Origin: Sphingobacteriales bacterium TSM_CSM
GTDB lineage: Bacteria > Bacteroidota > Bacteroidia > Chitinophagales > UBA2359
DNA length: 64,000 nt
Reading direction: 5' to 3'
Assembly (NCBI GenBank): GCA_002212725.1
Contig: MTCR01000084.1
Location: 1 to 64,000 of the forward strand
The notes beneath the pieces were generated by a model. That model was not told the DNA's origin. It saw nothing but the letters and a program-made list of their open reading frames with translations, and did no database searches. Below are positions 1,370-43,778 of the stretch, piece after piece (within the stretch, counting starts at the first letter, position 1; every line of letters begins with the position of its first letter). A program made the position numbers and the translations under genes.

Positions 1370-2280
1370 GGGTTGTTTATTTTTTGGGACATAAATACAG
1401 AGTAATACTGCGAAATTATCATAATTTTTCAAAAAAAACAAGAATTTGTTGTGTTTTACCAAATATTTTTACTTGCTAAGTTTAAGTTCTTTGTTTTCAA
1501 TTACTTAGAAAGACATGACAGGTGACATGTTAAGAATAAGCAAGTTTTTTTCTCCTTTTTGCACAAAAATAGCCCTCTTTTTTTGGGCTAAAGAGGGGGT
1601 ATTACCTGCAATTTTACTTAATTCGTTACATTTAATTTCAGTAAGGACGCTTCTATCTTCTTCTTATACAAAATCACTTCCAAAGTTGGCTATGGTTAAT
1701 ATAAATTCAGTCATTCTATTAGATGAATTGGAGTTGAGTCAGGTCTAAGCCCCAAATACCCGCGTGTTGGTTGTGGTATCCAAACAACGGAGCAGAACCA
1801 ATAAACCGGTTTTTAATGTTTGACTATAAGCAGTGAACAATTATTAATATTCAATACCTTTGTCTATACTTATATTCATGAAATTGCAAATTCAACAATC
1901 TGTACAAGCGTTTGGCAAATTTGGACTGGTTTTTGGCGGGTAAAGTAATATTTTAAGTTTTGTAAACAATAGTTGCCCCAACTTACCCAATCATAGGCAA
2001 AAAACCCGAAATTTGAAAAAAAAGCGAGATGGAAACAAAACCACCATATACTATTAGAAGTCTGCTATGAGTTTATATGAAAATCGGTGCAAACCATTGT
2101 GGCGCTGCAAACTTTAAAAGGGGGTGCAGCTATATGCTGTAATTACCTGCTTTACCTGTTTAAAACGCTTATTCAATGCTTTTGCAGAACCTGTTACTAT
2201 TTTTAATCGGGCTAATTCCTACAGCAGGCTTCCTGTTACCTAAATAGTTGCAAAAAAATCATCACTAAAAGTGTCCTGTT
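1370..2280. other. Non-coding region with a microORF and a solitary repeat end
   Basis: No convincing gene. A perfect hairpin CCCTCTTT/AAAGAGGG lies at 1573-1597 without a clear T-run. A consensus -7 box TACCTTTG (1855-1862) stands 15 nt before a 22-codon ORF (1878-1943) that starts MKLQIQQSVQAFGKFG; it could be a relic of a longer gene. At 2235-2251 the sequence ACCTAAATAGTTGC resembles the right terminal repeat of the 172-bp element at 11012-11183, but the rest of that element is absent. Confidence 0.5.
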
Positions 2281-11003: not shown

Positions 11004-11191
11004 ATATTGCTGTACTTATTTAGGTTGTACCTTTGTTGGTGATGTTCTTCACTAAATTCCTTTGTTTTACCGCAAAGAACGCAATGTTTTGCACAAAGTT
11101 TTTTTTGCTCTTTGGTCAGTGCTGCAAATCAGCAAGGAACAAGAGAAAATGCCGGGATTTACAGATAGTACCTAAATAGTTACATATTGCT
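11004..11191 (+). mobile_element. MITE-like element, copy A, with perfect 8-bp target duplication
   Basis: The element proper is 11012-11183 (172 bp). Its ends are GTACTTATTTAGGT and, inverted, GTAACTATTTAGGT: a 14-bp terminal inverted repeat with two mismatches. It is flanked on both sides by ATATTGCT (11004-11011 and 11184-11191), a target-site duplication. It has no coding capacity. The interior holds ACCGCAAAGAACGCAA and a stretch CTCTTTGGTCA shared with copies B (35841-36003) and C (41479-41661); the first half also recurs in copy D (about 43630-43778). It fills most of the gap before dprA. Confidence 0.85.
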
Positions 11192-11199
11192 TATCTTTG
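11192..11199 (+). promoter_or_regulatory. Putative -7 promoter box of dprA
   Basis: TATCTTTG fits TAnnTTTG and lies 29 nt before the dprA TTG start. It begins right at the outer edge of the repeat's target duplication, so the element inserted immediately upstream of this promoter. Confidence 0.45.
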
Positions 11200-35744: not shown

Positions 35745-36141
35745 CTTTATGCCCACCGCCGCTGTGCCGGTTGCCGGAAAATAAAAATGGATAAGGTACT
35801 GTTAACGGCTGTATGAAAAGTAGCTGTTGCTACGTTTTGTGCTAATGTTTTAGGTTGTACCTTATGTTCTTAACTAAATTCCTTTCATTTTACCGCAAAG
35901 AACGCAAAGTTCCGCAAGGTTTTTTTGCTCTTTGGTCAATGTTTCAAATCAGCAAGGAACAAGAGAAAATGCCGGGATTTACAGGCAGCACCTAAATAGT
36001 TACATGTTTTCTATTTAGTGCTTTGTGTTCCGCGTGTTTTTCGGATAAAATATTATTTTAACCGCAAAGAACGCAAAGTTTTGCGCAAAACTCGCAAAGG
36101 AATTAGCGCTCATCTGCAAGTAATATGTGCCGATTTCGCTT
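35745..36141. other. Repeat-filled intergenic region
   Basis: Holds copy B of the short mobile element (35841-36003) and, at about 36055-36141, a second block (ACCGCAAAGAACGCAAAG, TTGCGCAAAACTCGCAAAG, GGAATTAGC) that recurs inverted inside copy D at about 43630-43700. The similarity runs up to the end of the doc pseudogene. No gene is seen. Confidence 0.6.
35841..36003 (+). mobile_element. MITE-like element, copy B
   Basis: About 163 bp, same orientation as copy A and alike over most of its length (TTTAGGTTGTACCTT, ACCGCAAAGAACGCAAAG, GAACAAGAGAAAATGCCGGG, CACCTAAATAGTTAC). The left terminal repeat is eroded. ATGTTTT occurs at 35845-35851 and again right after the right end (36004-36010), but this may be chance. 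Confidence 0.75.
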
Positions 36142-36519
36142 TTATTTGTTCGTAGTTCGTTGCTTTATCCAAGTTACAATTTGCTGAAAGTCAAGTTGTC
36201 CCGATGCAACGGAAATAACAAAGTCGTACTTTTCGTCTTGTGTGGCTTGTATGTCCTTGCCAAAGTTCATCAAAACCAAACGCATCAAAACGTAACCTGT
36301 TCTTTTGTTGCCGTCTATAAAAGGGTGGTTCTTGACTATGCTTTACAAAATTGCACCTGCTTTTTCTTCTGGGGTTGAGTAAAACTCTGTTTCGCTAAAA
36401 CCACTAAAAGGTCGTTCAAGTGCTGATTTTAGCCCGTTTTCATCTCTCACACCCTGCGAACCGCCAAACTCTCGTATCAAAACTTGATGAATTTCAAGAA
36501 CTTCTTGGTAGGCTATCAT
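36142..36519 (-). pseudogene. Doc/Fic-family toxin gene with an in-frame stop
   Basis: Translating the minus strand gives MIAYQEVLEIHQVLIREFGG..., then codon 59 is TAA (36343-36345), then the frame continues SIVKNHPFIDGNKRTGYVLM to a stop at 36142. The total of 125 codons is the length of Doc (death-on-curing) proteins, and HPFIDGNKRTG is an intact Fic motif (His65 in the full count). Doc-type enzymes phosphorylate or AMPylate translation factors. One base change (for example TAT to TAA) explains the stop. It could be a disabled toxin or a sequencing error. The ATG overlaps the stop of the antitoxin-like gene (ATGA). Confidence 0.82.
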
Positions 36520-41478: not shown

Positions 41479-41661
41479 GTAACTGTTTAGGTACTATCTG
41501 TAAATCATGGCATTTTCTCTTGTTCCTTACTGATTTGAAGCATTGACCAAAGAGAAAAAAAAACATTGCGGAACTTTGCGCAAAACTTTGCGTTCTTTGC
41601 GGTAAAATGAAAGGAATTCAGTTAAGAACAGCGCCAACAAAGGTTCAACTTAAATAAGTAC
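41479..41661 (-). mobile_element. MITE-like element, copy C
   Basis: About 183 bp, inverted relative to copies A and B. Read on the minus strand it runs GTACTTATTTAAGTTGAACC ... ACCGCAAAGAACGCAAAG ... GAACAAGAGAAAATGCC ... ACCTAAACAGTTAC. Terminal repeats GTACTTATTTAAGT and GTAACTGTTTAGGT remain recognisable. No target duplication is left. It abuts the start of the hydrolase pseudogene. Confidence 0.8.
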
Positions 41662-43563: not shown

Positions 43564-43629
43564 AGGCTCTTACGGAGCAATGTATTTAAATATTATAAAT
43601 GCTTGTTGCCGGCAAAGCTTTAAGAAGCC

Positions 43630-43778
43630 GTACAAAAAGTGAAATTAGCACATCTTCACTTGCAGTTGAGTGCTAATTCCTTTGCGAGCTTTGCGAAAAA
43701 CCTTGCGAATTTTGCGGGTAAAATGAAAGGAATTTAGGTAAGAACATCACCAACAAAGGTACAATCTAAATAAGTGCC
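43630..43778 (-). mobile_element. MITE-like element, copy D (chimeric or partial)
   Basis: Read on the minus strand: GCACTTATTTAGATTGTACC, TTTGTTGGTGATGTTCTTA, AATTCCTTTCATTTTACC match the first half of copy A; the second half instead matches the block at 36055-36141 (CTCGCAAAGGAATTAGC, CTGCAAGT, ATGTGC). The right terminal repeat of copy A is missing. Confidence 0.65.

Follow-up and report, generated by a model that had tools for sequence, protein, structure and literature searches.

The question raised by this locus is whether a 172-bp segment without a gene, lying between two identical 8-bp sequences, is a transposable element that moved in this genome and, if so, which kind of transposase moved it. 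The window, i.e. the whole stretch of DNA that was analysed, is 64,000 nucleotides long, and its features are listed in Table 1. The initial annotation described the segment (copy A) as a non-autonomous transposable element with 14-bp terminal inverted repeats, a perfect 8-bp duplication of ATATTGCT and dispersed relatives, and left its source family open. It proposed a search of the genome with the element, an alignment of all copies with their flanks, a comparison with empty sites in related strains, and a search for a full-length insertion sequence with the same ends.

Structure and genome-wide copies

Direct reading of copy A agrees exactly with this description of its length, repeats and duplication. 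Its two ends (GTACTTATTTAGGT / GTAACTATTTAGGT) are imperfect inverted repeats that differ at 2 of 14 positions, and ORFs of at least 100 aa are absent inside the MITE.

Table 1. Coordinates of the MITE copies and associated features in the window
Feature	Position	Strand	Observation
Possible solitary right end GCAACTATTTAGGT	2238-2251	-	Exact 14-bp match; nothing alike beyond
Left target duplication ATATTGCT	11004-11011	.	Read directly; single copy ATATTGTT at uninterrupted G002 site
MITE copy A, 172 bp, no gene	11012-11183	+	Read directly; genome-wide relatives
Left terminal inverted repeat GTACTTATTTAGGT	11012-11025	+	88 left ends genome-wide
GCAAAG array	11070-11115		
Right terminal inverted repeat GTAACTATTTAGGT	11170-11183	-	With next 3 bases, 5' end of IS66-type remnants
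Right target duplication ATATTGCT	11184-11191	.	Read directly; G002 uninterrupted site
Second MITE, ends GAGGCTGTATGAAAAGT / GAAGCTGTACGAAAAGT	35807-36143	+	Interrupted by copy B; right end worn; uninterrupted G002 relatives L224, L225
Copy B duplication ATGTTTT, left	35845-35851		
Copy B of MITE, first 10 bp missing	35852-36003	+	Nested in second MITE
Copy B duplication ATGTTTT, right	36004-36010		
GCAAAG array	36050-36130		
Copy C of MITE, 183 bp	41479-41661	-	No recognisable duplication (1/8)
Copy D, chimera of MITE left half and second-MITE right half	43624-43778	-	Joined at GCAAAG array
GCAAAG array	43660-43730		

The draft assembly of the genome to which the window belongs (G000) is fragmented, with 4.92 Mb spread over 178 contigs, and is 88% complete. 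At least 40 near-complete matches to copy A were found in it, the best of which are 85-91% identical. The ends themselves were searched genome-wide (at most 3 mismatches in 25 bases), which gave 88 left and 85 right ends, and reversed control patterns gave 0 matches in the same search. Ends lying 107-186 bp apart form 69 pairs; from the loci, 78 distinct end-paired copies were extracted, with lengths of 151-186 bp and a single exception of 107 bp, and the genome holds at least 78 copies. The unpaired ends that were examined belong to worn, truncated or interrupted MITE copies, some of them at contig ends. Identity to the consensus averages 91% across copies (range 81-97%), and the central GCAAAG array is the one part that departs from conservation over the whole length of the element. 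Several MITE copies (L059, L075, L078) are bordered or cut short by another repeat, which contains TTTTAATTAAGTTCATAAAATTAAATGGATAAAACACTAG.

In a rough count based on the longest ORFs, without a gene finder, 50 of 63 copies lie outside ORFs of at least 100 codons, in DNA that is about 84% coding. The 13 copies counted as inside are all no more than about 120 bases from the edge of an ORF, and the same rough count (n = 63) gave no clear preference of gene orientation around the copies. Among 398 genomes of the order, the end pattern is present only in G000 and in its sister species (G002); the same kind of pattern gave 13 candidate matches in species genomes. Plasmid and phage records contain no match to the MITE. 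Five matches of the end pattern in viral contigs were rejected: a second end was missing from all of them, and they resembled coding sequence or chance matches.

Evidence for transposition

Target duplications were assessed on the flanks of the 78 copies. At length 8 and offset 0 the mean agreement between the two flanks is 6.24 of 8 bases; at offsets 3-8 it is about 2.5, and every length other than 8 gives a lower value. The duplication is perfect in 33 copies and has one mismatch in 19, so that 52 of 78 copies match at 7-8 of 8 bases; when right flanks were shuffled among copies, a mean of 1.1 copies (maximum 4) had at least 7 matches. The element is therefore flanked by a duplication of fixed length, 8 bp. 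Targets are AT-rich (73% versus 58% in the flanks).

The orthologous site beside dprA is uninterrupted in G002, where a gap-free alignment of 241 bases (87% identity) is obtained with the flanks of copy A plus one ATATTGCT. The comparison shows copy A as an insertion in the G000 lineage; a precise loss in G002 is less likely. Because of the duplications, the multi-copy dispersal and the uninterrupted orthologous site, the element is a MITE family that transposed in this genome, and the initial reading of copy A, as one of several dispersed, non-autonomous transposable elements that make an 8-bp duplication, is upheld. It is a real, well-supported and ordinary MITE family of a well-documented kind.

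Copy A is inserted immediately upstream of TATCTTTG at 11192-11199 (TACCTTTG in G002), which may be the -7 box of the dprA promoter, so that expression of dprA may have been altered. An inward-reading TACCTTTG box is also present in the MITE left end (11028-11035, and in the left ends of other copies) and perhaps remains from the promoter of the parent transposase.

Relatives in the window, a second MITE and the GCAAAG array

The relatives reported earlier within the window proved to be of several kinds. Copy C is a genuine relative at the place given (84% identical to copy A in a window search). The relative placed at 35841-36003 (+) is likewise real, with 85% identity to copy A over 35849-36008 (+), but it is not a plain copy: it has lost its first 10 bp and is nested in a second MITE, since the sequences on its two sides run continuous in several dispersed G002 copies. 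The copy given as partial at 43630-43778 (-) resembles copy A in its left half only (86% over 87 bp, 43689-43775, minus strand) and is a chimera with the second MITE. As for the solitary end given at 2235-2251, the 14-bp end is exact, but as a solitary end it is unproven.

The second MITE is unrelated to the first, is about 180-190 bp long (loci L163, L224, L225, L070 and L029) and has 3-bp duplications of TNA type (TTA, TTA, TAA, TGA; read by eye) in 4 of 5 copies; we take it to be perhaps of IS5 (IS1031-like) type. In L070, an end of the first family lies inside an element of the second, a junction of the same kind as that of copy D. As both junctions fall within the GCAAAG array common to the two MITE families, recombination at the array is the simplest reading of how they were made.

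The spacing of the GCAAAG units is mostly 9, 10 or 12 bp, and longer length classes contain more units; variation in unit number probably explains most length classes. Outside the first MITE, the array is also present at loci in G001 and G050, which are other genomes of the order, and no paper on it was found in the open-access literature, which is weak evidence of absence. That the array is a functional module (a binding site or recombination point), repeatedly captured and spread by MITEs and giving rise to chimeras like copy D by recombination there, is a speculative proposal that we hold to be rather unlikely.

Assignment to a transposase family

IS66 was chosen for testing, since elements of this family make 8-bp duplications and have ends that start with GTAA. 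G005, a genome from the same bacterial family, contains an IS66 element of 1.5 kb that is intact (L044), with GTAACTATTCAG at both ends, a duplication AATAGTTT, and a single gene whose 491-aa product scores 317 bits against NCBIfam IS66 (cut-off 180) and also passes Pfam DDE_Tnp_IS66. Its 12 end bases are all those of a variant of the MITE right end, and it shares the 8-bp duplication; unlike the MITE it is autonomous, its next two bases are TC instead of GT, and it belongs to a different genus.

With the G005 protein as a query, N-terminal transposase remnants were found in G000 (C90, C21, C15) and G002 (C160, C68, C72). The 5' end of four of them (C21 of G000 and three in G002) is GTAACTATTTAGGTACT, 17 bases identical to the MITE right end, after which the identity stops. 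In these same four places a transposase N-terminus related to the G005 protein (34-46% identity in one comparison, 43-50% in another) follows about 200 bp after the GTAACTATTTAGGTACT end. The remnants are IS66-like only by this similarity and by their N-terminal DUF6444 region, a domain common to the G002-type N-terminus and the intact G005 transposase. All remnants of the genus break off before the catalytic domain and the 3' end, two of those in G002 at a contig end, so that an intact parent in G002 could be hidden by the assembly.

By profile search, Pfam DDE_Tnp_IS66 is absent from G000, G001 and G002 and present in relatives; a PF03050 search of G000 gave no match, because only N-terminal pieces survive. 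No intact transposase was found in G000, G001 or G002. The search for a full-length insertion sequence with the same ends yielded none in the 88%-complete G000 assembly, the intact element of G005 being the one recovered with GTAACTATTCAG ends. Phylum IS66-type proteins related to the N-terminus of the genus had no ends with an 8-bp duplication within the loci examined. G000 contigs C90 and C15 (L157, L158) start inside a palindrome CCCCGAGTACTCGGGG within IS66-type remnants (C21 is also listed), which is probably an assembly break.

A GTAA-type end in the strict sense is found at the right end of the MITE only, the left end GTACTTATT beginning with GTAC. Compared with a single autonomous element, the right end is matched and the left end is without a partner, as the remnants lack a 3' end. 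The 8-bp duplication agrees with that of IS66 elements, including the ISBst12 group. The mobiliser was, on these sequence likenesses, very probably an IS66-family transposase of ISBst12 type, which answers at the family level the question of source left by the initial annotation. The exact parent would be a full-length element with ends GTACTTATTYAGGT and GTAACTATTYAGGTACT around an IS66 transposase; its second end is not in the sequences.

Alternative explanations

Movement by another family with 8-bp duplications (e.g. IS6, ISL3, IS1595, IS256), the IS66-like ends being a coincidence, would fit the missing second end of the parent and the failure to find an intact transposase in the genus. 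Such families are generally known to have other end sequences, and coincidence would also have to account for the 17 bases identical to IS66-type remnants. It would further have to cover the GTAACTATTCAG ends of the intact G005 element and the similar published ends of ISDge4 (PMC12898284), which makes this explanation improbable beside an IS66-type mobiliser.

Still less probable is an intergenic repeat under selection for a regulatory or structural role (an RNA or a protein-binding array) that merely resembles a transposon. The conserved interior with its GCAAAG array, the occurrence of this array outside the MITE and the intergenic position of most copies in the rough ORF count speak for such a repeat, but as an origin it is refuted by the target duplications and the precise uninterrupted site, and gene orientation lacks a clear preference. 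An RNA element is not supported, as no Rfam family matches at gathering score and folding is barely better than that of shuffles (z -1.6). A function of the GCAAAG array itself is possible. The fragmented state of the 178-contig draft could suggest chance similarity or an assembly artefact; this is refuted by the absence of control matches in the same genome and by copies that are 3-19% off the consensus with flanks that differ, and is scarcely conceivable.

Proposed mechanism and comparison with known systems

Under the preferred reading, an ISBst12-type IS66 transposase would have recognised ends of the form GTA(A/C)(C/T)TATT(T/C)AGGT and made an 8-bp staggered cut at AT-rich, mostly intergenic targets, leaving 8-bp duplications. 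Presumably it was this IS66-type transposase, not another with the same ends, that did the moving, and the MITE left end would match the other end of the parent. As only broken transposase pieces are present in the assembly, we infer that the family is now stranded; the MITE has apparently outlasted its transposase.

The nearest known kind is the ISBst12 group of IS66, whose elements have one gene. Its members ISDge4 and ISBst12 share with the MITE ends of GTAACT(A/G)(C/T)T(C/T)AG type, imperfect inverted repeats of about 14 bp and an 8-bp duplication; unlike them, the MITE is gene-free and only 151-186 bp in length, and its identity with the IS66-type remnants of the genus ends after 17 bases. 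ISDge4 has ends GTGACTACTCAGCA / GTAACTGCTCAGCA, an 8-bp repeat and a single gene, and its transposition was observed (PMC12898284); the same paper places the first report of active transposition in this group in 2026; the reference duplication length of IS66 elements is 8 (PMC3281130; PMC12898284). MITEAba12 (PMC6382973) and a Cardinium MITE (PMC9769881) are likewise short and non-autonomous with insertion-sequence ends and, as far as described in the parts of these sources consulted, are not IS66-derived. No paper on a MITE of IS66 type in Bacteroidota was found in the open-access literature, which is weak evidence of absence.

The worth of the finding lies in the ISBst12 link, which ties an orphan high-copy bacterial MITE to a little-studied group of IS66, and in the unexplained GCAAAG array. 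The insertions, together with the uninterrupted sites of the sister species, provide a datable set beside housekeeping genes.

A MITE set of its own (L086-L099) is present in G001, a third species of this genus; the ends are GTAACTACTTAGGT (also given as GTAACTACTTAGGTACTG) and the interiors are very variable. One copy read by eye (L096) has an exact 8-bp duplication GTTTCATA and GTATCTACTTACCC as its other end.
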